Of a stretch of 64,000 bases of DNA, positions 22,987 through 58,548 are shown in pieces. The position numbers and the translations under genes were made by a program. This DNA comes from Schoenoplectus triqueter (lineage: Eukaryota > Streptophyta > Magnoliopsida > Poales > Cyperaceae), in the NCBI GenBank assembly GCA_964058805.1, contig CAXKVV010000058.1:124001-188000 (forward strand), given 5' to 3'. Each line of letters opens with the position of its first letter. Within the stretch, counting starts at the first letter, position 1. The notes beneath the pieces are model-generated. The model was not told where the DNA came from, did no database searches, and was given only the letters and a program-made list of their open reading frames with translations.

Positions 22987-23696
22987 TGTCACACCCCAAA
23001 ATAAATGAATCGGGTTAGGGGTGTTTAATCCCGCCACGTGCGCACGACGAGACGTGCGTACGAAAGGCTATGTGAATAATAATAGAGTAAATCCCAGAAT
23101 AAACAAAACAATAATAATAATAATAATACAAAACAAAACAGTCCAGAATATACAGATAAATACAACGCCAGTCACCGGCGGGGCTAACACCATCGGAATG
23201 GGTAGCAAAATCTCTCAAATAAAGCCCAAAGAAAGAAACCAAAAACCCGATACCCGATAAGCCCTAATCAACTACCCGCCTCACTGTGCTGATGCGGCGA
23301 AGCACCTCTGATATCGCGCAGGACTGTTGCACCTAGCACTCTCATCAAACTCGAGCCCATGCCTGTAAACCTGGATCCCACAACCACCGTGGAAACGTGA
23401 GTAATTTTTAAAAATTACTCAGTACGGATTTAGATCCAGCCTTAAGATTTGATCTTCTTTCCTAGACTGGATCCAAAACACCGATACCGAATTGAAATGC
23501 ATTGAATTATTTAAATATATGTTAATGTATCATTATTCTATACAATCCGAGAATACCTCTACATGAATGACATGAAATGTCAATTAACCCTGAAATAGAA
23601 AATCTGAGGAAATAGTAATATAATAGTAAATATAAAGTACGAGTAAACAAACACCCGAAATAAATATCCCAATTTGCAAATCACCAGATCTATCCC

Positions 23697-24114
23697 AAGC
23701 GGGCGCCACCAGCGTCCCAACTTACGAACTTGGGCCTTGCCTAAGCGGGCGCCACCAGCGACCCAACTTACGAACTTAGGACTTTATGTTTATGCGGCGC
23801 CAATGCCGCATAAACGGCAATTCGGGCTCCCGAGGCGATAACGCCCTAGGAGAGTGAGCGTGCATGAGCACGTACTCTGGTCTGCTAAATCTGGTAATTT
23901 ACCTTACAAAATAAAAGCAAGTGGATAGTTATGTCTTCAGTTGCCATATCGCCAAAGGAGATAACTACTCGTGAATTAACAAATCGAAATCAAATGGGAG
24001 CCTACACTGTACCAACCAAGGGTCAGAGGACCGCATCCCGTAAAAGTATCAAAACGAGATATAACAAATGGGAGCCTACACTGTACCCACTAAGGCCAGT
24101 GGACCGCATCCCGA
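23697..24114. repeat. Short tandem and near-tandem repeats within the chromovirus LTR
   Basis: AAGCGGGCGCCACCAGCG recurs with a 46-bp period (23697 and 23743), each copy followed by CCCAACTTACGAACTT. Further on, AAATGGGAGCCTACACTGTA recurs with a spacing of about 74 bp (about 23992 and 24066), each time ending in GGACCGCATCCCG. The same arrays are in the right LTR. Confidence 0.8.
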
Positions 24115-24887
24115 CTTTCTCTGTACCAACTACGGGCCAAAGGAGAAAGCCCTTCGGACAATATTAGGATCCTAAATACGCCGGATAAATATAATAATAT
24201 AATATCACGAACTAGATTCCAGTCTCGGATATGGCCGCCCACACTAAACACTGAAGTACACGATATCCTAAAACGCTCAAATTTGGATTAAAAATTTAAT
24301 CATATTAAGAATAATAAAAATATAATATTGATCAAAGAAAAACACTCCGACACAGCCGAACCCGCCAAATGACGGGATCGGTGGATAATCCGACAGGCAC
24401 AGATGCGCAGTACATATACAGACCGGTGGGTCCCACGGGCCTATGGGTCACCGTACGTAACCACAACGGTCTGGTTATGCAAGGCAACTTAGACTGGGAA
24501 TTACCCGGTCCGCCTCTCAGCACTCCCATGCATTTAATGCATGATTAACTACCTAGCTTGATTAATAATTAGTAATAGTAATAATATTTTCCTAATAAAT
24601 ATAATCTACAACTTGAATTATTTAATTCTATCTGATCCTATCTCGGGACTATTTCCCGAATACTACTCCTATCCTGTCTACGTGCAATATGACATGATAT
24701 GACATGCGAATGCGGGTATGTCTCGAATATGCTGGTCAATTTACCGGATGCAGATGACAAGTCAATTTTGGTCTCTAATCAAAGTTTGGTCGAAAGTACC
24801 GCAATTCAGATTTATTTTAAAAACAGTTTTAATTTCGGTTTGGATACCTAATTCTAAAGAAAGAAGATGAATCCCAGGAAACCGTAC

Positions 24888-25024
24888 CTGGGAGTGCTGG
24901 TGAGGATCGTGGAGTCGCTCTACTCCGGAGGTAGAACACCGGCCTCGGGGTCGGTGTCCGCGTACATCGGGTCGGGAACGACCTCGTACTCCGCGAGAGG
25001 ATCCGAGTCGACTGTATCACCTAA
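24888..25024 (-). other. Exon-like segment in the chromovirus LTR
   Basis: On the minus strand a GC-rich open stretch (DTVDSDPLAEYEVVPDP..., stop at 24920-24922) is bounded upstream by AATTAG and ATACAG acceptor-like sites and downstream by CCCAG/GTACGG, a strong donor (last exon base 24888). It may be a leader exon spliced to an acceptor just before gag. Function is inferred. Confidence 0.35.
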
Positions 25025-25048
25025 TTAATTTAAATTAGATGTTTATTA

Positions 25049-25053
25049 GTTTT
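25049..25053 (+). repeat. Target site duplication GTTTT (left) of the giant Tat element
   Basis: GTTTT stands immediately before TGTTTACCC at 25054. The same five bases follow the 3' LTR end at 52266-52270. Confidence 0.93.
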
Positions 25054-25242
25054 TGTTTACCCTTAAAAAATTTTTCAAGGATAAGTAGATGAATAAATGA
25101 AATAAATTGATGATAAATCATAAGAAAGGGGGAGAAGAGAGAGAGCAGTGGAAAGGTGGCCCACTGATCAGGAAAAGTCGCTGCATAACCCCGGAACAAA
25201 TCCATTAGTCCCACAATGGAATGCTGAGCGCAAAGTGAAGAG

Positions 25243-25327
25243 TATAAATACCCCGCTATTCTCTATCCACTCAGCATGTGTGACACCCAAGAAGATCGAG
25301 GGAGAGAGGAGACCTCTTGGGTGTCAC
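25243..25327 (+). promoter_or_regulatory. LTR TATA box 1 with downstream 13-bp inverted repeat
   Basis: TATAAATA (25243-25250) is followed 30 bp later by a perfect inverted repeat, GTGACACCCAAGA (25280-25292) and TCTTGGGTGTCAC (25315-25327). If transcription starts here, the RNA 5' end would carry a 13-bp stem. The copy in the 3' LTR is at 46169-46253. Confidence 0.4.
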
Positions 25328-25630
25328 CATGTGATTTTATCTTTTCTGACAAGTGGGACCCACCTGGCAGCCCCTTGCAGATGAACCTAATAGCATAGCC
25401 TATCTGATGAGTCACCCATGTGACCATTTTCACTGACAGGTGGACCCCACACCTCAGTGACCTATTGAGGGAGTCAGAATTGAACCCTAAAAATCTGCCT
25501 TTGGAGCTAACCCTAGAAAGGAGCTGAAGCAGTATAATCCCTATGCTACATGAAATGATGTCAATGCCAAGCTAGCATTTTGATGCAGCTAGTTATAAGA
25601 AATTCCAAATGTGATTTTGCTTTCAAGGCT

Positions 25631-25857
25631 GACCTGGTGCCAAAGCTGCGAGCAACCACCTAACCATGCTTTGATTTGTGTCAATTACTGATAAGTAGTC
25701 AGTTCTTTGACCAAGTCACCCTCATGTTAAGGGATTGAAAGTCAATTTCACAAGATTGATCAGGTGCCAAAGCTGGGAGCAACCACCTGATCAAGTCTAG
25801 ATTTGTATTAATTGCTGATAAGTAGTCAGCATTTGATCAAATCAAGCCCTAATGAAT
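25631..25857 (+). repeat. 127-bp-period duplication with covarying small hairpins (array D)
   Basis: GGTGCCAAAGCTG..AGCAACCACCT recurs at 25636 and about 25763. Each unit later carries the loop TAAGTAG between ACTGA/TCAGT (25687-25703) or GCTGA/TCAGC (25814-25830). The A-T to G-C change is on both sides of the stem. In unit 2, GATCAGGTG also pairs perfectly with CACCTGATC. The copy is at 46557-46783. Confidence 0.75.
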
Positions 25858-27021
25858 ATCAATATAAGTCTAATTGGTATTTAGTTAGGGTGGTTTCTGC
25901 AAGAGAGAGGTAATTGGCAGAGACATTGAGCTACAATTGAGATTAGGGATTAATTAATAAGGAATAATAGGGTTTTATGAATAAAAGAATTTTTAATCCA
26001 GAGAAGGAGGGTTAAAAATGGAATTAAAAATTACAGGGATGATCATCATGAATTTAGGGATTTTTGGTGAAATTTTCATGATTTTTGGATGAAGGGAGCT
26101 ATTAAAATTAATTGGAGAAAAGAAATCAGATAAATCCAAGGGTCAGGATTTGATCAAGGGCTTTTATGGGTGTAACTTGGAGCTGAAGAGCTATCTGTGT
26201 GCAAATGGGAGACGCTAAACACATAAGGGGTAAGTTGGCGCTGGAGATGTTTTAAAAAGAGAGCAAACATTTGCATGAGCCCGGCGCATCTTATTTGTGT
26301 CTCATTAAACCTGACAAGTGGGGCCTGTCCATGTGCGCCGAGTTCACCCGAAAGCGGTCGCTTCCTATCTCTTGTTCTTTCGCTGCTGCTGGGTCCCACA
26401 AGGGCAGAACCTTCCTCTTCTCTTCCCTGCTGCGATTTATTCCTTTAAACCCGATTTTTCCGACAGAAAACCAATTGAAAATGGAAAAGGGCTCAATTGG
26501 TTATGGAATTTTACAAATGATACACCATTGGAAAGCTTTCGATGAGAAGAATTCGGCGAAGCAATCACCACTCAATTTAATGCACTGTGCATCACTCGCA
26601 CTCAAGGGGTAAGAAGTCGGGTGTAAAGTTCAATTGTGCAATTTGAAGGATGATCAAGTAAATTGGCGGTTGGGATAGCATTTAATGGGTCCCACGATGC
26701 GGTTAAGACCGTTGCTGGCATAAATTGAACCCCTTTCTACACAATTTACACAATGAGATTGGAGTACCGAATTGAGCACAGTGAAGTAGGCCAATTTACT
26801 CGGTGTTTGAAGGAATGGGAGCAGGGAGGAGCTGAGTTGAGATTGCAATGCCACGTTGGCAATCCAGATGATCAATTTAGTTGCAAAGAAAACACAATTG
26901 ACATCAATCTATACCATTGAACTATTGGATCAAGAGCTATGATCATGCCACCTCATCGATCTGTGGGATCAAGAAAACACAATTGGTGCATAAAGAAACA
27001 CAATTGAGATGTAATTGAGCC

Positions 27022-27028
27022 TATATAA
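27022..27028 (+). promoter_or_regulatory. Main candidate LTR promoter, TATA box 2
   Basis: TATATAA followed by GCCC has the look of a plant retrotransposon TATA box. A start near 27050-27060 would make a leader of about 4.4 kb before gag. The copy in the 3' LTR is at 47948-47954. Confidence 0.55.
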
Positions 27029-27104
27029 GCCCTGGAGAAGCAATTGATCAACCCCCCCGATTCATACTCATACATTCGGCTAAAAATTGAATACACTTCA
27101 TCTT

Positions 27105-27663
27105 TGACTGATTGATCTCGGTTTTAACTTGAGAACTCAGTCACACCCTAGCTTAGATCCAAAGAGAGAAAGAGAAGGAAAGCATAGAAACATAATTGGG
27201 AAGGAGGCTAGTTAAAGGAAGTCAAGAAGAGCAAGAACCCGATTGATCTCACCTTCTACATTTGAGAATTCAGTTGTAGTATCACCAATAGTCTATACCA
27301 GGTAATCTTCTGATCTAATTGGAAGTGTTGATATGTACTTGTGTTTGAATTTTGAATATAATAGAGATATATCATTCAAATTTTAGTCTTTTGCATTTCT
27401 TGATTCATTCATTGACTGTTCTTTATAATCAATCAAATTCAATTCATATTTCTTTCAATTCTTTGATTGCATATTGGTTGTAGGATAGGAATCGCATTCT
27501 CTCTTTCTTTTGTCGATTGATCTCGGCCAAATAGCTTGAGAACTCGACATATACAGGGTCAATTTTCCATTTTCAAAGATGTAATGCATTAGTCATGATC
27601 TATATTAGATATATTTGCAGTAATGACGCTGATTGATCTCAGCCAGAGGCTTGAGAACTCAGC
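27105..27663 (+). repeat. Hairpin array B (four units) at the start of the predicted RNA
   Basis: Each unit has TTGATCTC, an 11-17 base loop, then GAGAA. The outer stems differ but still pair: TGACTGA/TCAGTCA (27105-27143), TGTCGA/TCGACA (27511-27549), GCTGA/TCAGC (27628-27663). The unit at about 27238-27276 pairs only weakly. All share an inner CTC/GAG step. The copy is at 48031-48589. Confidence 0.65.
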
Positions 27664-28299
27664 AAAGGGTCTTCGATTGAAATTGAATTGTAAACTGAAA
27701 AAGAACAGTGAAATTCATCAGTATTGCACGATCATTAGCTGATATCTAGCATAAGCATACAAGGATAATGAATCGTCAATCTCGAATTGTCCAAAATGTT
27801 GATGAAATCGATTGCAATTAGTGGCAATATTCTTCGGTACCGAACTGTACCGGTAGTTCACAAGTGACATTGGTACGCATCATAGACTACCGCATCGATC
27901 TCCAATCAGAGCCGATGATCAGATTCTACAGAACAAGGCGATGCTATTTGTGTATCCTGATCTTTCATCGGAGACAGGGATCACCGGAGTAAGTCGTCGG
28001 AGAAGGCGGTATCGTTTGATTCAATAACACGGATTTTGATGTATCTGCACAGATCTAATGACGATCGGACGAAGATTGTAAGCAAAGGTGTAATGGAATG
28101 ATCCCAGTCTTTGATCTTAGTTAGCACTAATCTCAGAGCAGATCCAGTGGCATGCATTATTTGAGAGATGGTAATAGAGAGGCCGGCCCAGTAACGTATT
28201 GAGCCCAACAGGAACAAAAAGGAGAATAATAATAAAAAGGGATATGGTCCGGTTATAAATTGGGCCCATTCGTAGGGAAATAAAAATAAAATAAAACTG

Positions 28300-29587
28300 G
28301 CCCAATTAATAAGCCCATTAAGTTAATAACAGAATATTAAGATTAAATAGTAAATAAATCATTTGAAAATGTTCCTGAACTCCAAATTGACTCAAATTTG
28401 TTTCTAAAATTTTCTTATTTTTCATACTATTTTTCTATACAATAATATTCCAGTTTTAGAGATATAATCATGATAAAACAATTTAAAAGCAAAATACATT
28501 ACATATATTGATATAGTTGACCTAGCTTTGACTTGTCATTTTAAATACTATAAAAATTCCAAAAATACAAATAAAAATCACAAGTAATAATTAGATATAT
28601 TTTACTGATTTTCAAGTGATTTTCCATGAAATAATAATGGTGATAATAATATACCATAATAAATAATGAGATTAGCTATATTCTTTGATAAATAAAAATA
28701 TATATATAAAAAAAATATGAATAACAATAGATATTATATTGATATTTTTCTGTAAAAAGAATAATAGAAATAAATAACACAAAATATACAAAAATATACT
28801 ACTATAGTAATAAATAGTAAAATACATTTTCTTTTATAATAAAAAAAAATGATAATATAGTTTTATAATATGAATTGTATTTCTTTTGTTATTCCCATAC
28901 AAATATACAATAAAAATACTTTTGATAAAATGTTATAAAAATAATAGTTGTAATAAAAACATAATGAATTTCATCTCTTATGGTTATTTTCAACTAATAA
29001 TAAAAATCTTATACTTTTCTATAGATAATAAATAGAAATAATAAAAATAGATATAATGAATAGTATAATAAATAGGATAGAATATTAGTAATGATTTCTT
29101 TTTAGCTATTATAGATATTAAAAATAAAAAAAAAATAATAAATAATAATAGTAAAATAGTATAAATATTAAAAATAAAAAAAAAATAATAATAAATAATA
29201 ATAGTAAAATAGTATAACTAACCCTCTTTTTAATTTTGTAAAATGATTCTTACATAATGAATAGTATTTCAATATAATAGAATATAATAACAAAATTCTA
29301 TTACTTTAGCTATTATAAGCAGTTTGAAAATATAAATAAAAAACATAGCTATCTTACTTTCTATTATTTTTGTAAGTGATTTTCTACAGAATAAATAGAG
29401 TTTAGAAATAATAAAAATAGAATTTTACTACTTTAGCTATTATAAAAAAAATAAAAAAATATATAAATGAAACTCTAGTTAAATAGCTAACCCCTTTTCT
29501 ATTATTTTTGTAAATAATTTTCTACATAGATAAATAGAGTTTAAGAAATAAAAATAATAGTAATAAAAAATAATAATAGTAATAAGA

Positions 29588-29631
<44 letters not shown>

Positions 29632-29660
29632 GCATCTTCATAATAAAAATAATAATGAAA
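28300..29660 (+). repeat. AT-rich block with (AAT)n microsatellite inside the LTR
   Basis: About 1.36 kb of AT-rich DNA with many AATAAA-like poly(A) signals and repeated TTTAGCTATTATA segments, ending in an (ATA)n run at about 29587-29631. It is a likely site of RNA 3' ends, though this is not demonstrated. The copy is at 49226-50586. Confidence 0.7.
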
Positions 29661-29752
29661 GATATTATATAATAGACTTTGTGCATTTTAGAAATGAATA
29701 AATATGCTCACATAAGGAGTGTAGAGCCACATGAGAATATTTGCACACATTA

Positions 29753-30280
29753 GTCAAGACGTGAACACCTTGACGTAGGATGATTAAGGTTTCAATAGCA
29801 ATATAAAGAAGGTGCGTTGAGACAAGAATATCTTGATGTGATAAGATTAAGGCTTTGATAGCAACGTGAGAAGATATGTCGAGACAAGAACATCTTGACA
29901 CTTGATGAAGAATAATAAGATACGTCGAGACAAGAACATCTCGACACTTGATGAAGAATAATAAGATACGTTGAGACAAGAACATCTTAACGTGAGGTGA
30001 TTAAGGCTTCGATAGCAGCATGAAGAGACACGTCGAGACAGGAACATCTTGATGTTTGATGAAGAGTAACCAGAGCTGCGATATTAACATGGAGATGTAC
30101 GTTGACTCTGAAGAAGAAGAACATTATGATGTCCTAGATAGGTGACATCTTAATGACTCGCTGCCATGAGCAAGTGACTCATGATTGAATACGCTCACAC
30201 AAGGGGTGTAGGGCAACATAGTAATTTTGCACAAGTAATGCAATACGTAGAATGATTAGTCGAGACAAGAACATCTTGGC
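29753..30280 (+). repeat. Hairpin array A (seven units, loop CAAGAACA)
   Basis: Units lie at 29753-29774, 29815-29838, 29878-29899, 29924-29945, 29969-29992, 30031-30054 and 30259-30280. The reference stem is GTCGAGA/TCTCGAC. Variants include CGTTGAGA/TCTTAACG (paired changes), GTCAAG/CTTGAC, and versions with G-U pairs. The loop stays near CAAGAACA. GATGTC/GACATC hairpins (30128-30149, 30355-30376) are interspersed. The copy is at 50679-51206. Confidence 0.75.
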
Positions 30281-30431
30281 GTTCGTTGAAGATTGACCAA
30301 AGCTACGACATCAGCATGGAGAGATATGTCGACTTTGAAGATGAAGAACATTACGATGTCCTAGCGAAGTGACATCTTAATGACTCGGTGTCATGAACAA
30401 GTAATTCATGACCATTTGAGCTGGCAAGACT

Positions 30432-31018
30432 GAACTCGTCCGTCGATGAGTTTATCTCCTGGCTCATTTCCCGAGAATGTGAGATTGAATCGGTCTGTTG
30501 GTAGATTCATCCACAAAACAGTGAATGTGAACCGTTCTGTAGGTAGGTTCCTTCACTAACACATGCCTCAATGTTGAACTGGCCCAGCGCTTCAGGTTTG
30601 ACATTGTGTGCAATTGTGTTTCCTAGGTTTATGAATCGGCTTAGTGCTTCGAATTCATGATCTAGAAGATCGGTGAGAAGAAATACGTGGGCCATAGCCA
30701 CCCTTCTCCTGATTCACCAACCTCAAGATCAACCGGCTCAGTGCTTCGAGTTGTATTTTGTGTGATTGGTTGTTGACTAGTTAAGATTGAACCGGTCTGT
30801 TTGTAGGTTTATCTTCTAGATCAACGGAGGTCGAGTCGGTCTGTATGTAGACTCACCTCAAGCCCCCTATGAAGAGATTAACCTGGTCTGTTGGTAAGGT
30901 TACATCTCGAGGTGGCATGGACTGAACCGGTCTGTTTGTAGGTTCGTCCCCCATAAGACAAAACCGATCTGTTTGTAGGTTTGTCTTCCATAGATTGAAC
31001 CGGTCTGTTGGTAGGTTC
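30432..31018 (+). repeat. Hairpin array C (nine units, loop GGTCTGTTGGTA)
   Basis: Units start at 30432, 30487, 30529, 30789, 30833, 30879, 30924, 30961 and 30997. The loop is close to GGTCTGTTGGTA in all. Stems are GAACC/GGTTC (three units, plus one with a terminal G-U), GAATC/GATTC, GAGTC/GACTC, TAACCT/AGGTTA, AAACC/GGTTT and AACTC/GAGTT. Every stem change is matched by its partner. A sister motif with loop GGCTCAGTGCTTC is interleaved (about 30566-30760). The copy is at 51358-51944. Confidence 0.82.
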
Positions 31019-31344
31019 ATCTTCCGTAGATCCATTTTTATAAACTTAGACGACCACTTGCCCATCTCTTAACTATACTATTTGCTTCTCTCTTTCAAAG
31101 ATCCAGAGGTGCCTCGAGGTTCGTAGCCCAGGGTAATTAACGGTGGGGGCTTGCGCCCACCGGAATCTACAAGAACTCACAATCACTAAAAACCCCCTGA
31201 ATGTGCATCCAAATAATCTCTAAACGGCAGAATCGGCCGACACCCATCAGATGCACGCTCGGGAGGGATCTCCGTGTCCTTCTTCCGCAGAACCCATCGC
31301 CCGGCGGCGGTGCGGCGGCGCGCGAAAAAGGGTCGCACAGGATC

Positions 31345-31363
31345 TGGCACGCCCGGTGGGACC
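31345..31363 (+). promoter_or_regulatory. Primer binding site of the giant Tat element
   Basis: TGGCACGCCCGGTGGGACC begins five bases after the LTR end. It opens TGG, as expected for pairing with a tRNA CCA end. I do not assign the tRNA. Confidence 0.75.
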
Positions 31364-31479
31364 TAGATTCTCCTCTTATCTCTGAAAGAGAGAGGCAAAT
31401 AGAATACTTAAGAGATACAAGTGATCTTCTATGTGCTAAAATGACTAATAATTTTCAAGTGTTTTTGTTTTTGCAGGAA

Positions 31480-34400
31480 ATGGCATTCTTCGGAAACTTC
31501 AACCTTGCTCCCTACACCGTCACTCCTGCTCAGAGCCCAGAGGGCAAACTATTCATGTTCTTCGGGACCATCCCGCAAGAACTTACTATCTACGGCCCAG
31601 CTCCAGTGGCCACGATTACTCCTGCGACCGTCCGGATCTCCATTCCGGACGAGGAGGAAGAATCGATCACCCTAACTCCCAAGGAGATCTCCAACAACGT
31701 AATGGCCTCTCCTACTGCCTCCCCAAAGAGGAGAAGGCGACCGTCCAAGAGGACAGCTCCAAAGGTCGCAGCCCAAACTGCCCGTAACTCTCAAGCATCC
31801 AGGAAGAGGGCCCTGGATGCATACCAGAACCAGCTGGTGGCTAGGCCAGCTATCCCAGTCTCCAACAAATTTACAGCTCTCCGAATAGTGGCCAAGAACT
31901 CGGCCACGGGCCAGCTCCGCCAGGCATGGGAGGTGCCTAAGCCCACACCTCGCCCAACTCAAAGGCCTCAGCGCCGCCAGGACAAACCCCAAACCCCTGC
32001 AGAAGCCATCTACAAGGCTCACAGGGCCCTCAAACAGAGGAGAAGCGTTAAAAACGCTAGGTCGAGACAGTACGTCTCCCGCCCTAACCAATCTCAAGGC
32101 TTGGCTCAGCCGCGAGTCATTGCCTCCACTCCGAACACAAGGAGGTCTATACCAAAGGCAACACCTAGCATCCAGCAGGTGTGGGTCCCGAAGGGTTCCC
32201 AGCCAACAAAGCCCCAATCTCAAACCCAGCCCAGTAAGGCCGGCAGGTCCAACGCTCCGTCCGAGAGCGTGTTCAGCCGCTTGGGTCAGAAGAGTGTATT
32301 CAGCCGATTAGGCTCGAGAATACCACTCAATAGTCTAAAAATAACTGCCCCTGATCAAGCAAAGAAGAAGAGAAGAACCGCTCGTTACGAAGAGCACTTC
32401 TCGGTCAACACCATCAGTATAAGCTACGATACTGATCCAGACACTGATGGTGAGGTGAATATGGTCCAGGATGACCAGTCCCCGCCTAATCAAGCTCACG
32501 TCACCAATACCAATAAGAATAATGGTAGAAAAGGGAGACCACCCAAGAGAGTCAACCCCGAAGGCAACAGCAGGGAAGGGGAAGACCACAACGAAAACCC
32601 TGACTTCTTTGATAATGAAGATGACGTTGAAACACGTCCCGAAGTGCCTATCGATGAAATTGAAATACTAAAAGGCCACATCGAGGCACGGGATGAAGAG
32701 CTGATTAGGCAACGGGAGCTAATCGCTACCATGCTGAAGCAGAATGAAGAATTGATTAAGACGGTCAAATCGTTACAAGAATCACAAGACGCCAATTTCA
32801 AAGCTGGTAGCTCCCGTCAAGAAGGGGTCCACAGTACCAAAAGCAATCATAAGGGAAAACAACCTGTCGATTCTAAACCCCATCCACATAGAACCATAGA
32901 AGTGGAGGCTGAACCAACGGGAATATCCCGGAAGGAGATTCAAGCCATGATTGCCCAGCAAATGCAAATAGCTGGAGGTGGATACGCTATCCCTCCTGTC
33001 AAAAACTGTGGACATCCATACCCTGCCATATATGATTTAGAAGAATATCCTAAAGGGTATGTGATCCCCCGTTTCAGGACCTTCTCCGGGGAAGGCAATA
33101 AAGACCTAAACCCCGAACAACACCTGGCCCACTTTGTAGCCTCGTGCGGCAACACGGGCGGCAATGATGCACTGTTGTTAAGACAATTCCCTCAGAGCTT
33201 GGTGGGAACCGCCTTTCAATGGTACTATTCGCTGGAAAACAACAGCATCAGGACCTGGGACGAGATGGCGGACTCGTTCAGGGCACGTTTTGTCATGGTG
33301 TCTGACAAGATAAACATAGCCGATCTGGCAAGCACTAAACCCAAGAAAGGGGAGTCAATGACAGATTTTATCAATAGATGGCGGAACCTCAGCATCAAAT
33401 GCGACCGCACATTAACCGAAGATGAGGCCGTCAACCTAATCATGAAGAACATTGACGGGTGGATGGGCATGCTTCTTGGTGTGACAAAGGTCAACACGTT
33501 TAAAGACTTGCTCAGATCGGTATCCAATATGGAAAGGATGTCACCACACACCGTGCCGAACTTCATGAATAATAGACCGCAACGAGGAGCCCGAGCTGAA
33601 ACCAAAGTGGCATTCACCTCGTTAAAGGATAAGATGGTTGCCAATGCAGACACCCAAGGCGACAGTAGTAGCATAAATGGCAACAATTATAATAAGGGAC
33701 CCAGGCCCAACCCAGGAGGGAGTTCACGGAGTTTTGAATCCCTTAAACAAAAGAAATCTAGACCATACTCCTTCAGAAAAGATAAAGTTGCCCAAATCTT
33801 CAGAGGGGCACTGAAGAACGGCCTAACCCTGCCGGCCAGTAAACGCCCGGAAGATGCCGATAAATCGGACGAACCCAACTTCTGCCCATACCACAGAATA
33901 ATAGGGCACTCAATTGAAGATTGCTGGGTCTTCAAAGATTGGGTCGAGAAGGCGTATAAAAATGGTGAAATTACTTTACCTAAAGGGTTCTTGCAAAGCC
34001 CATCAGCCCATGAGCAGGCCAACACGATCTCTCATGAGGAAGAGAAAGTCCCGGGCCAGTCATGCGAAGACCAGGAAGAACAATGGACTACGCACCTATC
34101 GAAGAAATCAATTAAAATGCTTAAAGCCCTTAAGAAAGAACCTGGCATGAAATGGAAAGACGATATCACACCAGTGGTCCCACCAAAACCCAGGGTATAC
34201 TATAAGGTGGACCAGAGCCAAGACCAGGTTCTTAAGAAGAAAAAGAAGCATAGAAACAACAATTCCAGAAAGAATAAAATTGAAGAGTACGAGCAGGGCA
34301 GTCCCGAGGCGATCACCCTTCAACATTTCATCTCCAAAGAGGACTGGGAGAAGCTAACCCTAGGTCAAAAGAAAGAAAATGCAGATGGAGAAATAAATAA

Positions 34401-37400
34401 AGAAGAAAGCGAAGAGATCTGGGGTGCTTCGTGCAATATGGTATATTCTTCTCACGACGAAGATATGCCAACATTAGAGGAGATGTTCTTCCCGAATGAT
34501 GAAGGAGAAGCAAGCACCTCTGGGACCAAAAATGAAGAATGTAAAGCCGTGCTCCGGTCCGGGACTTATATACCCGAGAGACAGGCTCCCAAGGATTCCG
34601 ATAAAGGGAAGGACAAGGTCCAGAATAAAGGTAAAGAGGTCGAGAATCCAAGCAAGAACCCAGAAAGGACCCGGTCGACGGGCGAAGAATATAATGTGTT
34701 GGCACATCTGCGTAAGATTCCAGCGCTATTAAGCATATTTGACGCGTTGATGATGTCACAAGACCTAAGGGAGGTACTAATCCAGGCCTTGCAAGATCCC
34801 GAGAAGTACAAGTCATACTTTGTCGAGCAAAATATGCAAGAAGCCCTATTCACCGCCAAACGGGCCGCCTGTATAAATTTCACAGACGACGACCTCCTAA
34901 TAGGCACCGTCGACCACAATCGCCCGTTGTACATCACTGGAAATTGTGGAGGGCAAAAGATTGGCCGCATCTTGGTCGACGCAGGGTCTTCGATCAATAT
35001 TATGCCGCTCAAAACCCTAAAGACCATCACCTTAGATGTGAAGAACCTATCTGATGAAAAGGTGATTATTCATGGCTTCAACCAAAACTCCCAAAAGGCC
35101 CTGGGAGCTATAACTCTGAACCTGCAATGCGGAAGCCTAAGAGCGCCTACTAAATTCTATGTTATTGACGCTGAAACCTCTTACCGGGCGTTGCTGGGTC
35201 GCCCGTGGCTTCACAGCAATCAGGTCATACCCTCTACTCTGCACCAATGCCTGAAATATATCGAGAATGGTAAGCAAAAGAGAATTGACGGAGATGTCAG
35301 ACCATTCGGGGTGCATGAGATTAAGTTCAATGACGCCCAATATTTTCTGCCTAAATCCGCTGTGGCGCCGAGCCAGCCAATGACAAAAGCAGGTCAGAAA
35401 CCCTTCAATAAAGGCCCTAAATTTGATACCTCATCCGGAGAAGAAGAAGAGGTCAAATTTAATATTAAACCCCGAGGTGCACGAGCCCAAAGACCCGGAA
35501 GAAAGTCGGGTGAAGAAGCAACCTTCCGCTTCAAACAGGTGGCTACGTATAAGGCCCAAATAAAACCGAGCGAAATCAATGCAAGTGATTCTGAAGAGGA
35601 GGTCATTTTCAATTTTAGGCCTGCCAACACCCCTCAAATTCAGATCATAGAGGCAACTTCAGGAGAAGACTCCGAAGATTCTAACAACTCGGGCGATACC
35701 ACCTCGGGAGAAGAATCTGGCCATGATCGTCAACCCTGGGAAGAGGAGTCTGACGAAGAGATCATTTATCACATCCTCAAGAAGCCATATAAAGGGCCCG
35801 AAACAGACAATGAAAGTGAGGAGTCATATATGATCAACACGGGACCCAGTAGCGGAAGGGATAACCCGGTTAGGCCAAGGCCTATAAATGAAGAACGCTC
35901 ATGGCGGGAAAATTTTGAAGGTCGCATCTGGAATGCGATCGACGAAATAAGACACCAAGTTGAAAATAATAGAAGAGAGGTGTCTGAACAATGGGAAGTG
36001 ATGCAGGATATCAAGACGCAATACAATGAAATCATGATAATGATTGAAAACCTGCAAACCGCGATTTATAATTCCGAGCTGCTCAAAGAAATGACGAGCG
36101 AACCCCGTTCCGGGACCCCCGAAAGACAAACACCCGATAGCGGCAAACGGGTAATCGTCATAGTAGATGAATCAAAGGGGGAAGAAACAAGAGCTAAGCA
36201 ACCGACCGTCATGCAAACTCTCAAGGTCAAGAAGAGTAAACCATACTCTTTTCTGAGAAATAAGACAGCTCGGATATTTGAACAAGCCCTAAAGAATGGG
36301 TTAACACTTCCCGTTTGCAAAAGACCCGCTGACATAGAAAGAGCCGGCGAAGGCGAATTCTGCCCTTATCATCGCATATTGGGCCATACAATTGAAGAAT
36401 GCTGGGTATTCAAAGACCTAATAGAAGAAGGGCATAGAAACGGGACAATACAACTCCCGAAGAGCTTTCAACAAGACCCAGCTCCGCATAACCTGAATAA
36501 CAAGGGCAAAGGGGTTGCTTATACGATCTCGCATACTCCCGTACCTAGTAAACCTAAGGTGGCGAGACGTAAGCCGATCAAGGAAATCTACCGCTCCAAC
36601 TCAGTCATGAATATTGAAATAGAAGAAGAGATGGCAGCGCTAGAGATTACTGTAGTCCCCGAAAGGCATTTCAAAGACCTCATACCAAGGGAGGTGAACC
36701 ACATTCAAACCCTAAAGACCTTTGTTGTGCCGGCAAAGGTAGAGCGCATTAAAGGGAAAACTATCATCCACAAGGCTATAATTTTCTATCAGAGTGATTC
36801 AACCCAATCTCTGAAGAATCCTGATCACAACACTTGGAAGAAGTGGGTGATAGAACAAGAGTCAGAGAATGCAACGAGCGATGACGCTGCATCTCATCCC
36901 TTTGGAAAGGAGCTGTATAAACTGGCAAAAAGGGCGAAATGTCTGAGAGACATATCCAAGGCCGAGGCCAAGCGCTTCGATGAACTCTGGAATGGCGGCC
37001 AGAATAAAGTCCTGGGCCTGGATGGCAAAATAAAATACACCCGGGGATTAGGGTATAATTGCGATGACGCAGCATGTTTTGAAGGGTCTCTCAACGAGTA
37101 CCGTATGAAAGAGAGCTGCTGTATGACTTCTGTTGAAATGCCAGATGATAAAACAGAAGAGGACAATACCCCGGTTCTGAAAAATGCTTTGAAACAGCTA
37201 GAAAAGGAGCCTAATACGGTCGATGAGTTAGCAGAAATCAATCTGGGGACGGAAGAAGACCCACGACCAACTTTCATAAGCGCGTCATTGCCAGAAGAGG
37301 TGGCTGACAGGTTGAAGACATTCCTTAGAAGTTACATGGACTGCTTCGCTTGGAGTTATAAAGAGATGCCTGGATTAGATCCCAACGTGGCGGTCCATTA

Positions 37401-40400
37401 CTTAAAAATTGATCCAACCTTCAAGCCGATTAAACAAGCGCCGAGGCGGATGAGAATAGAGCTCGAAGAGAAGGTCGTGGAAGAGACAAAGAAACTCATC
37501 GACGCCGGCTTCATACGGGAAGAAGAGACGCCAGAATGGGTGGCTAGCATTGTCCCGGTTAAGAAGAAAAATGGGCAAATCCGCATTTGCGTGGACTTTC
37601 GGGACTTGAATAAGGCGTGCCCTAAAGATGATTTCCCGCTCCCAGTAACTGAAATTATAATTGACCATACATCCTCCTATGAAGTCTTCTCCTTCATGGA
37701 CGGTTATGCGGGATATAATCAAATTAAAATGGCGCCAGAAGATGAGAGGCATACGGCATTCCGCACGCCGATTGGCATATATTGCTACAAAGTCATGCCG
37801 TTTGGGCTCAAAAATGCGGGAGCCACCTACCAACGGGCGATGACGAAAATATTCGATGATCTAATCCACAAGATAGTAGAATGCTATGTGGATGACCTAG
37901 TCATCAAGGCCATGTCATATGAAGAACACCTCCAATATCTTGAGGTCGTTTTCAACCGCCTAAGAGAACATGCGCTCAAATTAAACCCGTTGAAATGCGC
38001 ATTCATGGTATCATCTGGTAAATTTCTGGGGTTTGTGGTACGCCACAGGGGCATTGAGATAGACCCGGGCAAGATCAAAGCAATAACTGAACTATCCCCG
38101 CCAAGGAATTTAAAACAGTTGCGATCTTTGCAAGGGCAATTGGCGTACATTAGGCGATTCATAGCCAATCTATCGGGTAAAATCCAACCCTTCACCCGGC
38201 TGACTAAGAAGAATATCCCGTTTAAGTGGGATGGCGAGTGCCAGCGAGCCTTTGAAGAGATCAAGGCATATCTACTCAACCCTCCAGTGTTGGCGGCACC
38301 CATACCCGGGAAGGAGCTCATCCTATATACAACCGCCCTGGATGGATCCTTGGGAGCTTTGCTGGCACAAGAAAACCAGGATGGTAATCAAAATGCGCTA
38401 TATTACTTAAGTCGCATGATGGTAGGGGCAGAACACGGGTATTCACCGATCGAGAAGCATTGTTTAGCCCTAATTTTCGCGGTGAAGAAATTGAGGCATT
38501 ACATGCTAGCCCACAAAATTATATTAATATCCAAGGTGGACCCTCTCAAATATCTGATGACTCGGCCAATGCTGACGGGGAGGCTGGCCAAGTGGGCTAT
38601 CATCCTCACTGAATTCGACATCACCTATACACCGCAAAAGGCGATCAAGGGGCAGGCGCTAGCAGATTTCTTGGCTGCACACCCGATTCAAGATGACTCC
38701 CCATTAAAATGTGACTTTCCTGACGAGGAAACTCTACATGTTGAAGAAGGAGACCCTATATGGGAGATGTACTTTGATGGTGCTTCTTCAATCAAGCCAA
38801 TCGCGGGCCCGGGAGTCCCAACTGTGCGAGCTGGCGCAGGACTAGTCTTCGTAACCCCGGAGGGCGGGATAATACGACATTCTCTAGCTTTAACTGAACC
38901 ATGTACAAATAACGAAGCAGAGTATGAGGCACTCATCGCCGGACTAGAGCTTTCATTGGAGCTGGAAATCAAGGCTATGCGTATCTTTGGGGATTCACAG
39001 CTGATAATAAATCAGATAATTGGCGAATACAAGGTCTTAAAGCCGGAACTAATACAATATCACCAGAAGGCCATGGAACTAATGAAGAAAATCCCGTACG
39101 TGTCCATCGAGAAGGTCACAAGGGCCGTGAATGGTGAAGCAGATGCGCTGGCCAAACTCGCCAAGGAGCTGGGTGAACCAACAGAACCGGAAATCCACAT
39201 CATCGTCCGCAATAGGAGACCATTATCATTGTGTCAAATAACAGATGATGCGATTAATGAAAATGCCGGGCTAGAAAAGATGGAATGCCAAGAAGCAATG
39301 ATAACTGAAGACGATGATTGGAGACAGCCATTCATTGAATATTTCCGGCATGGCACCCTCCCTAAAGATAAAAGGATAGCTGATCAACTAAGAAAGCGGG
39401 TACTACGGTATGCATATGTGGGCAATACGCTATACCGTAGATCTTATGATCAGTTATGGCTAAGATGTGTATCAGGGCCTGAAGCCGGACAGGTTATGAA
39501 AGAAGTTCATTCCGGGCTATGCGGAGCACATCAGTCTGGGCCAAAAATGAAGTTGAAAATCAAGCGAATGGGATATTATTGGCCCACGATGGTGGCTGAT
39601 TGTGAAGAACATGCAAAGAAGTGCCGCATGTGCCAGATACACGGCCCTTTTATACATCAAGCGCCAAACCCGTTGCACCCCACGGTAGCATCTTGGCCAT
39701 TTAATATGTGGGGCACAGACATAGTGGGGCCCATAGACCCTCCGACGTCGAGAGGTCACCGGTTCATCCTGGCGGCGACAGATTACTTTACAAAATGGGC
39801 CGAAGCCGTTCCGCTTAAAGAAGTTAAAGCATCCGATGTGGTTAAGTTCTTCAAGACGCACATCCTCTACCGATTTGGTACCCCACAACGGATAATATCC
39901 GATAACGGGACAGCCTTCAAGAGCTCCAAAGTCTATGCCCTGGCGGAGCAATTCAATATTGACTGGAGATTCTCGTCCATTTATAACCCGAGAGCCAATG
40001 GCCTGGCCGAAGCCTTTAACAAAACCCTAATCAATATCATGAAGAAGACTGTGGACGGCAACCAACGAGACTGGGATAATCGTCTACAGGAGGCATTATG
40101 GGCTTATCGGACCACGTACCGAACACCTACGCAAGCTACCCCGTATTCTCTGGCTTTTGGGGTTGAAGCCGTCCTCCCTCTTGAGGTAGAATTACCGTCA
40201 TTGCGGGTGGCTATGCAAAACGATATGACCATGGACGAATGCCAACAACTTAGACTGGACGAATTGGATGCCATGGACGAGAAGAGGCTAATAGCCCAGC
40301 AGAACCTTGAGATATATCAGGCAAAAATGGTGAGGGCATATGACAAAATGGCGCGAGTTAGGGCATTTCAACAAGGGGAGCTTGTTCTTGTCCTTAAAAG

Positions 40401-40566
40401 GCCGATCATTGGCCGGCACATCGGCCCAAAGTTCTCTCCGAACTGGGAAGGGCCATATGTAATTGAGAAGGTATACGAAGGCGGCGCATACCAACTCATA
40501 GACCATGAAGGTGAAAGGCCCATGCCACCGATTAATGGGCGATATCTGAAGAAGTACTACACATAG
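31480..40566 (+). CDS. Gag-Pol polyprotein of the giant Tat element
   Basis: One uninterrupted frame of 3,028 codons from the ATG at 31480 (MAFFGNFN). An in-frame ATG at 31441 is possible, but a strong acceptor (TTTTTGCAG, ending 31476) lies between, which favours 31480. Order: Gag core (about 536-647), CHHC knuckle CPYHRIIGHSIEDC (802-815), aspartic protease with DAGSS (1167), an acidic low-complexity region, a second CHHC block (1628-1641), reverse transcriptase with YVDD (2136), a first RNase H that has lost its usual acidic residues, a second archaeal-type RNase H with YFDGAS (D2433), NEAEYEAL, GDSQL and ADALAK, then integrase with an HHCC finger and D2747, D2808, E2844 (DD35E). The dual RNase H marks the Tat lineage. 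It makes the virus-like particle, cDNA and integration machinery. No frameshift or stop is seen, so it is probably functional. Confidence 0.93.
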   Translation: MAFFGNFNLAPYTVTPAQSPEGKLFMFFGTIPQELTIYGPAPVATITPATVRISIPDEEEESITLTPKEISNNVMASPTASPKRRRRPSKRTAPKVAAQTARNSQASRKRALDAYQNQLVARPAIPVSNKFTALRIVAKNSATGQLRQAWEVPKPTPRPTQRPQRRQDKPQTPAEAIYKAHRALKQRRSVKNARSRQYVSRPNQSQGLAQPRVIASTPNTRRSIPKATPSIQQVWVPKGSQPTKPQSQTQPSKAGRSNAPSESVFSRLGQKSVFSRLGSRIPLNSLKITAPDQAKKKRRTARYEEHFSVNTISISYDTDPDTDGEVNMVQDDQSPPNQAHVTNTNKNNGRKGRPPKRVNPEGNSREGEDHNENPDFFDNEDDVETRPEVPIDEIEILKGHIEARDEELIRQRELIATMLKQNEELIKTVKSLQESQDANFKAGSSRQEGVHSTKSNHKGKQPVDSKPHPHRTIEVEAEPTGISRKEIQAMIAQQMQIAGGGYAIPPVKNCGHPYPAIYDLEEYPKGYVIPRFRTFSGEGNKDLNPEQHLAHFVASCGNTGGNDALLLRQFPQSLVGTAFQWYYSLENNSIRTWDEMADSFRARFVMVSDKINIADLASTKPKKGESMTDFINRWRNLSIKCDRTLTEDEAVNLIMKNIDGWMGMLLGVTKVNTFKDLLRSVSNMERMSPHTVPNFMNNRPQRGARAETKVAFTSLKDKMVANADTQGDSSSINGNNYNKGPRPNPGGSSRSFESLKQKKSRPYSFRKDKVAQIFRGALKNGLTLPASKRPEDADKSDEPNFCPYHRIIGHSIEDCWVFKDWVEKAYKNGEITLPKGFLQSPSAHEQANTISHEEEKVPGQSCEDQEEQWTTHLSKKSIKMLKALKKEPGMKWKDDITPVVPPKPRVYYKVDQSQDQVLKKKKKHRNNNSRKNKIEEYEQGSPEAITLQHFISKEDWEKLTLGQKKENADGEINKEESEEIWGASCNMVYSSHDEDMPTLEEMFFPNDEGEASTSGTKNEECKAVLRSGTYIPERQAPKDSDKGKDKVQNKGKEVENPSKNPERTRSTGEEYNVLAHLRKIPALLSIFDALMMSQDLREVLIQALQDPEKYKSYFVEQNMQEALFTAKRAACINFTDDDLLIGTVDHNRPLYITGNCGGQKIGRILVDAGSSINIMPLKTLKTITLDVKNLSDEKVIIHGFNQNSQKALGAITLNLQCGSLRAPTKFYVIDAETSYRALLGRPWLHSNQVIPSTLHQCLKYIENGKQKRIDGDVRPFGVHEIKFNDAQYFLPKSAVAPSQPMTKAGQKPFNKGPKFDTSSGEEEEVKFNIKPRGARAQRPGRKSGEEATFRFKQVATYKAQIKPSEINASDSEEEVIFNFRPANTPQIQIIEATSGEDSEDSNNSGDTTSGEESGHDRQPWEEESDEEIIYHILKKPYKGPETDNESEESYMINTGPSSGRDNPVRPRPINEERSWRENFEGRIWNAIDEIRHQVENNRREVSEQWEVMQDIKTQYNEIMIMIENLQTAIYNSELLKEMTSEPRSGTPERQTPDSGKRVIVIVDESKGEETRAKQPTVMQTLKVKKSKPYSFLRNKTARIFEQALKNGLTLPVCKRPADIERAGEGEFCPYHRILGHTIEECWVFKDLIEEGHRNGTIQLPKSFQQDPAPHNLNNKGKGVAYTISHTPVPSKPKVARRKPIKEIYRSNSVMNIEIEEEMAALEITVVPERHFKDLIPREVNHIQTLKTFVVPAKVERIKGKTIIHKAIIFYQSDSTQSLKNPDHNTWKKWVIEQESENATSDDAASHPFGKELYKLAKRAKCLRDISKAEAKRFDELWNGGQNKVLGLDGKIKYTRGLGYNCDDAACFEGSLNEYRMKESCCMTSVEMPDDKTEEDNTPVLKNALKQLEKEPNTVDELAEINLGTEEDPRPTFISASLPEEVADRLKTFLRSYMDCFAWSYKEMPGLDPNVAVHYLKIDPTFKPIKQAPRRMRIELEEKVVEETKKLIDAGFIREEETPEWVASIVPVKKKNGQIRICVDFRDLNKACPKDDFPLPVTEIIIDHTSSYEVFSFMDGYAGYNQIKMAPEDERHTAFRTPIGIYCYKVMPFGLKNAGATYQRAMTKIFDDLIHKIVECYVDDLVIKAMSYEEHLQYLEVVFNRLREHALKLNPLKCAFMVSSGKFLGFVVRHRGIEIDPGKIKAITELSPPRNLKQLRSLQGQLAYIRRFIANLSGKIQPFTRLTKKNIPFKWDGECQRAFEEIKAYLLNPPVLAAPIPGKELILYTTALDGSLGALLAQENQDGNQNALYYLSRMMVGAEHGYSPIEKHCLALIFAVKKLRHYMLAHKIILISKVDPLKYLMTRPMLTGRLAKWAIILTEFDITYTPQKAIKGQALADFLAAHPIQDDSPLKCDFPDEETLHVEEGDPIWEMYFDGASSIKPIAGPGVPTVRAGAGLVFVTPEGGIIRHSLALTEPCTNNEAEYEALIAGLELSLELEIKAMRIFGDSQLIINQIIGEYKVLKPELIQYHQKAMELMKKIPYVSIEKVTRAVNGEADALAKLAKELGEPTEPEIHIIVRNRRPLSLCQITDDAINENAGLEKMECQEAMITEDDDWRQPFIEYFRHGTLPKDKRIADQLRKRVLRYAYVGNTLYRRSYDQLWLRCVSGPEAGQVMKEVHSGLCGAHQSGPKMKLKIKRMGYYWPTMVADCEEHAKKCRMCQIHGPFIHQAPNPLHPTVASWPFNMWGTDIVGPIDPPTSRGHRFILAATDYFTKWAEAVPLKEVKASDVVKFFKTHILYRFGTPQRIISDNGTAFKSSKVYALAEQFNIDWRFSSIYNPRANGLAEAFNKTLINIMKKTVDGNQRDWDNRLQEALWAYRTTYRTPTQATPYSLAFGVEAVLPLEVELPSLRVAMQNDMTMDECQQLRLDELDAMDEKRLIAQQNLEIYQAKMVRAYDKMARVRAFQQGELVLVLKRPIIGRHIGPKFSPNWEGPYVIEKVYEGGAYQLIDHEGERPMPPINGRYLKKYYT

Positions 40567-44900: not shown

Positions 44901-45955
44901 CTATAAATGTTGGCCAGTACAGGCACGGCCAAAGAAATCCTGTCGCCACGCGCGATCAGGCTCGCCATAATGAACACCGAAGGCCGAATGGTGTATGCGG
45001 GGGAGCTAGGCAATAAGAAATAGCAAATCCACCAAGAGATGAAAGCTGTCAAATAAGTCTCCCGATCCACGTCATGTGAACACAGGGTATCCTGAGATGG
45101 GATAGGGCCGTCATAATGAATCTCGAGCCGACCTGTACCAAATGGATCTCTGGTGGAAGCCAAACCCGTAGGGCGAGTGTGGACCCGATCGGTGAAATAG
45201 GCGATCCAATGTCTGAACGGAACTCCGGGATGCCCTCTCCGTAGATGATGGTAAATCTCATAAATCCTACGCAAAGAAGGCGGGAATCGAGTGAAGTCCC
45301 CCGAGTCAGCGGGCGAGACCATGAACTCGTCATAGAAATGACCGAAAATCGGCAGCCCGGTCAACTGCTGTATCTCTAGGAGGGTCGGAGTCAGCTCCCG
45401 ATCGTCGATGAATAGAGTGTTGGTGGAATAGTTCCACCTCTCACAAAAGGCCCGTAGCCAGGGTGTGTCGATATGATAATGAAACATCGACAAGAAAACC
45501 GAGTCATATATCCCGGCTCGCCTGAGCAGAGTCCCCTCCCGCATGAGCACGTACCGGGTCCACTCTAGCTGATATCCATGGCACTCCAAGGGAGTGATGA
45601 AGGGAGCAGTAGTCCACCTGTAAGCCTCCCCGTCAATAATCTCCTTGCCCAGGAGATGTGTCAAAGGAGCTGTGGAAGCAACGCCTAAGGGCTGAAGGGG
45701 CATGGTGTCATGAGGCTGATCATCCCTAAAGAATAAACCGCCGCCTCGCGGGTAGACAGGAGTCGCTCGGATGGCTGAGATGAGAGGAGTCCAATCGCTA
45801 GGATCCTCGTAGAAAGAATGATAATGACTCAAGGGGCGACGCGGAATGGCGTCATGAGATAAAACTACAATACCCGAAGAAGAGAAGACGTCATGAGAAA
45901 TGAAGTGATGAATAATAAGGAATAATGCACCAAGACAAGCCTTTCGAGCGTTCAA
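41943..45955 (-). CDS. Antisense plant-mobile-domain gene with six exons inside the retrotransposon
   Basis: The minus-strand exons are about 45955-44077, 44000-43827, 43749-43642, 43568-43152, 43078-42989 and 42916-41943. All junctions are GT..AG; the five introns are 72-77 bp and all phase 1. The joined frame of about 1,213 codons stays open. Exon 1 carries a plant mobile domain: LRAFCERWNYSTNTLF, then ELTPTLLEIQQLTGLPIFG, an arrangement typical of that family. Exons 2-5 are Pro/Ser-rich and acidic. Exon 6 has a Leu/Glu/Arg-rich, coiled-coil-like stretch (EIHELRRHLETARLHYLQRL). The start is uncertain: the frame is open to 45955 (TTG there) but the first in-frame ATG is at 45703. The last roughly 110 codons of exon 6 look non-coding, so the true end may be earlier. 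Extra antisense frames between pol and the 3' LTR are known in Tat elements; their role is unknown. Confidence 0.78.
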
Positions 45956-45979
45956 GGCTCGTCTTGGTGGGTGGCTCTT

Positions 45980-50513: not shown

Positions 50514-50557
<44 letters not shown>

Positions 50558-52265: not shown

Positions 52266-52270
52266 GTTTT
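52266..52270 (+). repeat. Target site duplication GTTTT (right) of the giant Tat element
   Basis: An exact match to 25049-25053. After it the interrupted chromovirus LTR resumes. Confidence 0.93.
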
Positions 52271-58500: not shown

Positions 58501-58548
58501 GCTGACATGAGATGCTTTGCCTGAAGGGCGGATATAATTGGCACTCTC
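55512..58548 (-). CDS. Chromovirus Pol: RT, RNase H, integrase, chromodomain (separated from gag by a solo LTR)
   Basis: The open frame read from 58577 has 1,021 codons, of which the first ten belong to the inserted LTR. Counting on that frame: reverse transcriptase with FIDD (235-238), RNase H with YTDAS (382-386) and FTDHKSL, integrase finger H606, H613, C643, C646, catalytic D676, D737, E773, a GPF motif (911), and a C-terminal chromodomain (about 970-1018) with [14 protein letters not shown]. The chromodomain places it in the Del/Tekay chromoviruses, in which it is thought to steer integration to modified chromatin. All catalytic residues are present. Subtracting the 2,105 bp of insert plus duplicated target brings it in frame with gag-protease, so this was one gene of about 1,605 codons (from 62434) before disruption. 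Confidence 0.92.

Follow-up and report, generated by a model that had tools for sequence, protein, structure and literature searches.

Introduction

Retroviral packaging signals (psi) and the TIPIRT region of Ty1 comprise, in the available part of the source, several 5′ stem-loops near the primer-binding site that are proposed to be recognized by Gag (PMC5454406). Dispersed packaging signals are built from many stem-loops that share one recognition motif, and the MS2 signal carries a bulge on its 5′ side (PMC6281560, available sections). Other cis-acting RNA elements, namely RTE, MTE and CAR, recruit cellular export factors, and the accessible text on them states that the presence of CAR-like motifs in plant LTR elements is unclear (PMC12786077); long structured leaders with ribosome shunting are described for plant pararetroviruses (PMC5902531). 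Little is known of the cis-acting signals through which plant LTR retrotransposons select their RNA, and such elements form much of many plant genomes.

Within these elements, Ogre and Retand have a second RNase H between RNase H and integrase, 57% of Ogre elements have an ORF with a plant mobile domain, and the Ogre polyprotein is split over two ORFs (PMC6317226); Retand has an antisense ORF with Transposase_28 in 97% of clusters (PMC11963269), both sources being taken from the parts available. Here we describe an array of bulged hairpins with a repeated loop in the long terminal repeats (LTRs) of a related element, located in a window of 64,000 nucleotides, by which we mean the whole stretch of DNA analysed.

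Results

The array lies in the LTRs of a Tat-type retrotransposon

A Tat-type Ty3/gypsy LTR element of about 27 kb occupies positions 25054-52265 of the window. Its LTRs are 6.3 kb long and 100% identical to each other, and lie on the plus strand at 25054-31339 (5′ LTR, TG...CA) and 45980-52265 (3′ LTR); the identity covers 25052-31340 and 45978-52266, the ends being set from the flanks, where GTTTT on both sides of the element forms a target-site duplication. Because the array sits inside the LTR, it occurs twice in the window, with the second copy at +20926, and its repeat was found again at 51842-51956. The motif TGGCACGCCCGGTGGGA (31345-31361, plus strand), directly 3′ of the LTR, is by this location the putative primer-binding site; the genome holds 275 matches to it at no more than one mismatch, and 0 to the reversed pattern. 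The array ends 323 nt and begins 918 nt upstream of this motif, as the earlier note had placed it, with the correction that it is part of an LTR and is thus present in two copies.

Open reading frame and Pfam matches assign gag, protease, RT, RNase H, a second RNase H and integrase to a single gag-pol frame on the plus strand (31480-40566; 3121 codons from stop to stop, 31201-40566), of which the gag and protease matches fall under Pfam's cut-off; the piece 38101-40566 has the domain order RT_RNaseH (69-172), RVT_3 (242-354), rve (533-630). On the minus strand, upstream of the 3′ LTR, an ORF with a plant mobile domain extends over 44006-45982 (PF10536, E 5.1e-27). The protein families of the window are those of plant retrotransposons. 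The second RNase H between RNase H and integrase marks the element as Tat-type by the criterion given in the available part of PMC6317226. The antisense ORF with PF10536 is an Ogre trait; gag-pol lies in one frame, not in the two ORFs given for Ogre in the same part of that source; and the three longer antisense ORFs scanned have no match to PF04195, the Transposase_28 of Retand, at E up to 0.001. As Ogre and Retand each have one trait that is absent here, we class the element as Tat only.

Two stretches around the element, 22987-24250 and 62740-64000, are 99.8% alike and enclose the gag, pol and chromodomain of a chromovirus on the minus strand (55512-62455); they appear to be the LTRs of an older chromovirus into which the Tat element was inserted on the other strand. 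About 6.2 kb beyond the window end (194175-194785 of contig C56) the array region recurs a third time, with 100% identity where compared; as this copy follows the second by 18.8 kb, it may belong to a tandem element with common LTRs. On contigs C13, C22, C291, C463, C672, C738, C951 and C1004 the TGGCACGCCCGGTGGGA motif forms tandem sets of two or three at intervals of 144-146 bp, which to judge from the sequence is a duplication of the LTR end with its primer site.

The array is predicted to lie in a long RNA leader

A TATA box (29666-29672, plus strand) stands 38 nt before the first leader hairpin, and TATAWA is found 33-39 nt upstream of that hairpin in 14 of the 18 distinct copy variants listed; the listing draws on the 23 of 70 loci that gave context (47 gave none) and took in only copies with a TATA motif or GACTTTGTG close to the first hairpin, and is therefore biased towards them. 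Transcription would accordingly begin at about 29695, just before the first leader hairpin, and the leader would be about 1.8 kb long. That the array belongs to the RNA leader, as the earlier note had it, is supported by this near-fixed TATA spacing in the copies where it is readable. Between 29700 and 31480 there are 40 ATGs, where about 33 are expected from base composition.

Just before the gag ATG, at 31441-31480, the DNA has a branch-point-like CTAAT, a pyrimidine tract and TGCAG/G, resembling a 3′ splice site; by eye, the related families B and C described below have TTTTGTAG/G or TTTTTGYAG/G at the same place, and a 5′ splice-like CCCAGGGTAATTAAC (31127-31141) is also common to these families. 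Near the LTR end (31100-31165), a GGTTC...GCCC stretch and a GGTGGGGGCTTGCGCCCACC hairpin look conserved, again by eye, in families A, B and C.

Nine bulged hairpins share a loop on variable stems

Nine units with a 12-nt loop, which we call class I, lie at 30432-31018 within the 5′ LTR, all on the plus strand; their upper stems start at 30432, 30487, 30529, 30789, 30833, 30880, 30924, 30961 and 30997. The ninefold repetition of the loop recorded in the earlier note is thus present, and its single conserved loop holds for eight units: 8/9 loops match G[GAT]TCTGT[TA][GT]GTA, and that of U1, CGTCCGTCGATG, has clearly diverged. Copies and unit alignment together give the consensus GNUCUGUWKGUA. 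The flanking arms listed there, which vary among units and stay complementary, are all found: 45/45 upper-stem pairs are standard, including two G-U, for a score of 44/45 with G-U counted at half, which was reached in 12 of 100000 trials in which 3′ arms were shuffled among units. Counted separately over six pairs, the array has 94.4% of its 54 cells paired and a covariation score of 0.579; shuffling gave 0.309 (sd 0.057), and 0/500 shuffles were as high. By two coarser measures of this count, pairs changed on both sides (40/500 shuffles as high) and further pair types (278/500), the array was unexceptional.

The units are larger than the upper stem and loop first noted, being bipartite: the 5-bp upper stem with its 12-nt loop stands on a lower stem, from which a single unpaired nucleotide separates it on the 5′ side. 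Lower stems, such as AGAT/ATCT, GGAC/GTCC, AGAC/GTCT and AGGT/ACCT, score 30/36, with 156/100000 shuffles as high. Of 16 bulge combinations compared, the one-nucleotide 5′ bulge has the highest mean lower-stem score (3.33 of 4), and the base left unpaired is T in seven units and C and A in one each. The full units extend over 30427-30457 (U1, whose predicted fold closes on to a 4-nt loop), 30482-30512 (U2), 30524-30554 (U3), 30784-30814 (U4), 30828-30858 (U5), 30875-30907 (U6, whose 3′ side has two more nucleotides ahead of the lower stem), 30919-30949 (U7), 30956-30986 (U8) and 30992-31022 (U9). U3 and U6 fit the common lower-stem frame poorly; their outer stems are predicted to form around somewhat larger bulges. 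The distance from one unit start to the next is irregular (55, 42, 260, 44, 47, 44, 37 and 36 nt; 6/8 are not multiples of three), and Tandem Repeats Finder reports part of the array as a 36-37 bp repeat.

The minimum free energy fold of 30425-31035 has a hairpin at all nine class I units and at the three class II sites described below. Its energy is -196.6 kcal/mol against a mean of -171.9 (sd 5.75) for 20 shuffles (z -4.30); with z -4.34 for the antisense strand, neither strand folds better than the other relative to shuffles. A search of 25000-31500 against Rfam at E up to 5 returned a single match, on the minus strand, of 19.8 bits against a cut-off of 31, and hence no family. A resemblance of the class I loop to a tRNA D-arm was set aside, as ARAGORN finds no tRNA in the window. 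Two exact patterns for the complement of the class I loop core have no match on the plus strand of the element, and by eye the loop contains no self-complementary hexamer except the all-wobble GUUGGU.

Further hairpins interrupt and precede the array

The array is not made up of the nine units alone, as it had seemed in the earlier note: three hairpins with a 16-nt loop related to class I, here class II, are interleaved between units 3 and 4. All are on the plus strand, at 30574-30601 (IIa, with inner GGC/GCY), 30631-30658 (IIb) and 30728-30756 (IIc). IIb is the first half of a module common to other families, whose second hairpin (module hairpin 2, 30669-30713, plus strand) has a lower stem ATCGG/CTGAT, one unpaired T and an upper stem GAGAAG/CTTCTC. 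Among the 33 distinct class II loops, chosen by loop rule, 27 contain, with G-U allowed, the self-complementary hexamer looked for in a kissing-loop dimer initiation site, but 32 fit an alternative inner stem GGC/GCY.

Upstream of the array, at 29752-30281 on the plus strand, a second hairpin array has a loop near CAAGAACA on a 7-bp stem GTCGAGA/TCTCGAC and its variants, with seven pairing units and two more loop matches without pairing. It is rich in G-U: the 308 pairs of 44 distinct units include 48 G-U and 11 A-C, and tree events number 11 to G-U and 8 to A-C. Its helix score was reached in 12/200 null trials, and its share of standard pairs, 0.935, exceeds the null maximum of 0.890; the fold of 29690-30425 has z -3.33 in sense and -2.51 in antisense. 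Patterns with a purine-pyrimidine closing pair gave 9 matches against 4 in the reversed control, a second pattern gave 0 against 7, and neither search revealed a further loop family. A 16-base pattern matched 47 viral-contig loci and 2 genome-contig loci, once each, and was set aside as chance.

Genomic copies show constraint on arms and loop core

The genome has 430 matches to the pattern CCGGTCTGTTNGTAGGTT and 0 to its reversal. Our copy set comprises 70 loci (L009-L058 and L117-L136), 60 of them with the whole array region; the other 10, partial or from other families, were left out. It amounts to 40 distinct sequences, including the window's own, some of the 60 loci being one place fetched twice. 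Across these 40 sequences, the arms of U2-U9 changed least, at 0.12 substitutions per column, compared with 0.30 for the loops of these units and 0.42 for the rest of the array region; loop positions 3, 5, 6 and 12 have zero substitutions, and positions 2 and 9 are the most variable. At 204 predicted pairs, 98.9% of cells are standard, compared with a null mean of 96.0% and a maximum of 97.4% in 300 trials. Median identity is 97.7% among 31 distinct sequences, and with relatives this close the copies are better evidence of constraint than of covariation. Changes from Watson-Crick pairs lead to G-U in 38 cases and to A-C in 26 (one-sided p 0.084).

A related family has another loop in the same stem frame

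The primer-site motif is common to several element families. Twenty loci were fetched at it: 15 have the family A leader or a diverged form of it, and L122, L126, L128, L130 and L132 resemble it chiefly around the primer site, with AT-rich sequence, by eye, where the hairpins would be in L122 and L126. In L132, representing family B (86-100% identity among the 40 of 175 candidates scored), hairpins TGAGC/GCTCA, TGAGT/ACTCA and TGAAC/GTTCA enclose TGCCATTAATYGAG in place of the class I loop and stand about as far from the primer site as the class I array does; the L132 leader folds with z -2.52. Two more B leaders, L137 and L138, have three hairpins each with some pairs broken, and the three leaders together provide nine hairpins in the class I stem frame with the other loop, 41/45 of whose inner pairs are standard. 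The class I loop with pairing arms was found, among the loci fetched, only in family A and its diverged forms.

Family C (L128 and L130; 45 matches) contains several class II modules, and a profile search gave 64 module matches in the 31 sequences examined. Module hairpin 2 keeps one frame: a lower stem near ATCAG/CTGAT and, one nucleotide on, an upper stem reading GAGAAG/CTTCTC in family A, AAAGAC/GTCTTT in two B modules, and AAAACA/TGTTTT or AAAATG/CATTTT in several C modules. A homologous hairpin module is present in two other families of elements. Locus L045 has, at 3905-4497, another diverged set of class II modules, about 0.8-1.4 kb past the LTR end of that copy.

Covariation is significant at the level of helices

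We used an R-scape-like test, in which trees are built with FastTree, substitutions are placed by parsimony, the same substitutions are randomly relocated on the same tree, and pairs are scored by a G-test with APC. Units were selected by loop, not by arms, and as unit trees were built from the short units themselves, the null is rough. Dropped rows numbered 2 of 73 distinct units in class I; 19 of 64 in class II, by a loop rule that lost some real loops and kept a few chance matches; and 13 of 22, by loop, in class III (the family B loop), leaving 9 units.

Helix scores were matched by the tree-aware null in 0/300 trials for the class I upper helix, 3/300 for its lower helix (shifted lower-stem frames gave 42/100 and 64/100), 0/200 for class II and 1/200 for class III. 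The share of standard pairs exceeds the null maximum in the class I upper helix (0.986 against 0.921) and in class II (0.807 against 0.767), and falls within the null range in the class I lower helix (0.856; maximum 0.933) and in the 9 units of class III (0.911; maximum 0.978). For module hairpin 2, 59 of the 64 module matches were usable (37 distinct): its upper helix reached 2/300 by score with a standard share of 0.748 inside the null range (maximum 0.824), and its lower helix was not significant by score (47/300) with a share of 0.881, just above the null maximum of 0.876. Single base pairs were not significant in class I (best E about 1.3), class II (best E 1.28, outside the stem), class III or module hairpin 2 (best E 5.2), nor in a sequence-only alignment of 53 modules in which the second hairpin is misaligned (best E 1.65). 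Covariation support is consequently at helix level only, and the refuting condition named in the earlier note has a mixed outcome, with both class I helices significant and none of their pairs individually.

Tree events from Watson-Crick pairs in classes I, II and III together lead to G-U 25 times and to A-C about 14 times; class III alone has 0 G-U against 4 A-C, and module hairpin 2 has 32 G-U against 29 A-C cells. The sense-strand signal is weak and mixed across tests: because class III and module hairpin 2 lack a G-U excess, the sense strand is suggested, not proven.

Discussion

Our results give the hairpin structure good support: the arms pair in spite of their differences among units, helices covary, arms change slowly in copies, and a homologous module occurs in other families. 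We infer the function from these features, and propose, at a probability of roughly 0.45, that the array is a set of multivalent sites where protein docks on the genomic RNA, the likeliest purpose being packaging by the Gag of the element itself. The array would be part of the long structured RNA leader of a Tat-type LTR retrotransposon, transcribed from about 29695, and each unit would fold as a bulged hairpin of lower stem, unpaired 5′ nucleotide, upper stem and loop. What selection keeps would be the fold together with the core of the loop (near UCUGU and GUA), and the stem sequence would be left free; a loop repeated on freely changing stems suggests a single reader, which would recognize the loop and perhaps the bulge as well. 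Most likely the repeated loops serve one protein as multivalent docking sites on full-length genomic RNA, and nine or so weak sites would jointly mark that RNA for packaging, as has been proposed for the dispersed packaging signals of some RNA viruses. Gag is the likeliest candidate for that protein, as the turnover of the loop between families with a constant stem frame fits a fast-changing reader of its kind. The gag-pol frame has no match to a CCHC zinc knuckle (C-x2-C-x3,4-H-x3,5-C), so that Gag would need to bind through another part of the protein; arginine- and lysine-rich stretches seen by eye near the start of the frame (31720-32080), where a coarse scan for basic stretches reported none, are a possible RNA-binding part.

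The hairpins could instead be bound by a host factor that exports the unspliced RNA from the nucleus or stabilizes it, a role comparable to that of RTE/MTE of mouse elements or of CAR elements. Multi-copy loops bound by a cellular protein would give the same picture, most loop positions are nearly fixed in copies, and with a 3′ splice-like site before the gag ATG the unspliced RNA may need help; however, family B sets another loop in the same frame, which fits a fast-changing element protein over a conserved host factor. We regard this as a real rival with a modest chance of being right. A real rival as well, to which we give a small chance, is that the array controls translation of the approximately 1.8-kb leader, for example through ribosome shunting or internal entry: the 40 upstream ATGs make plain scanning to gag implausible, but a shunt has, in general terms, no obvious need for nine copies of one loop, and splicing to the site before gag could bypass the ATGs too.

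Matched changes in the arms can also arise without function, by template switching in quasi-palindromes or by cruciform repair. If reverse transcriptase switching templates, or repair of DNA cruciforms, had kept the arms matched in place of selection, the weak and mixed strand signal and the equal folding of both strands would be in keeping with it; copying alone leaves unexplained why arms change more slowly (0.12) than the rest of the array region (0.42), and several unpaired loop positions are nearly fixed as well. We consider such an artefact unlikely. Least credible, and very unlikely, is an ordinary tandem-repeat expansion with palindromes by chance: part of the array is called as a 36-37 bp repeat, but the arms differ between units and yet pair (12/100000 shuffles), the spacing is irregular, and the arms are constrained in copies. 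The preference of the earlier note for selected RNA structure over a minisatellite is supported by the helix-level covariation, the slow arms and the module seen in other families.

The docking reading can be widened to a proposal that we find doubtful, if worth stating: Tat elements may possess a multivalent array of bulged hairpins whose loop motif is exchanged between families, so providing family-specific addresses for a Gag that lacks the knuckle. If true, this would be a phage-like packaging code of many weak sites in an LTR retrotransposon, co-evolving with its reader. The array is a concrete, repeated and structure-conserved candidate with a defined loop core; its natural stem variants are built-in compensatory tests, the sister family presents another loop in the same frame, and such stem and loop variants make recognition specificity testable in vitro.

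Among the titles and opening lines of abstracts covered, mostly from outside subscription journals, none describes a comparable array of hairpins in plant LTR elements; in PMC12218528 the words retrotransposon, transposable, LTR, tandem, Ogre and repeat occur 0 times. The resemblance to Ogre and Retand lies in the proteins: the second RNase H between RNase H and integrase (PMC6317226 and PMC11963269), the plant mobile domain ORF of Ogre, and the antisense ORFs between pol and the 3′ LTR of Retand. Leader hairpins are absent from the descriptions of both in the parts available, where the word "hairpin" occurs 0 times in PMC11963269, and the tandem repeats of Retand lie between pol and the 3′ LTR, unlike the leader array here. 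To RTE, MTE and CAR the array may be likened by role. With MS2-type signals it shares a recurrent loop motif and a stem bulged 5′ by a single nucleotide (PMC6281560, available sections); it differs in that the unpaired base is T, C or A (7/1/1), not A throughout, in its 12-nt loop, in belonging to a retrotransposon and not a phage, and in that its docking role is a proposal. Like retroviral psi and Ty1 TIPIRT, the leader has several stem-loops near a primer-binding site, as prediction and covariation indicate; unlike them, it presents one loop about nine times on variable bulged stems over some 590 nt of a leader of about 1.8 kb, its polyprotein is without a zinc knuckle, and its class I loops offer no demonstrated kissing interaction. 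A structured retroelement leader is a known kind of thing, and a multi-copy array of bulged hairpins with loop turnover between families would be a new form of it.
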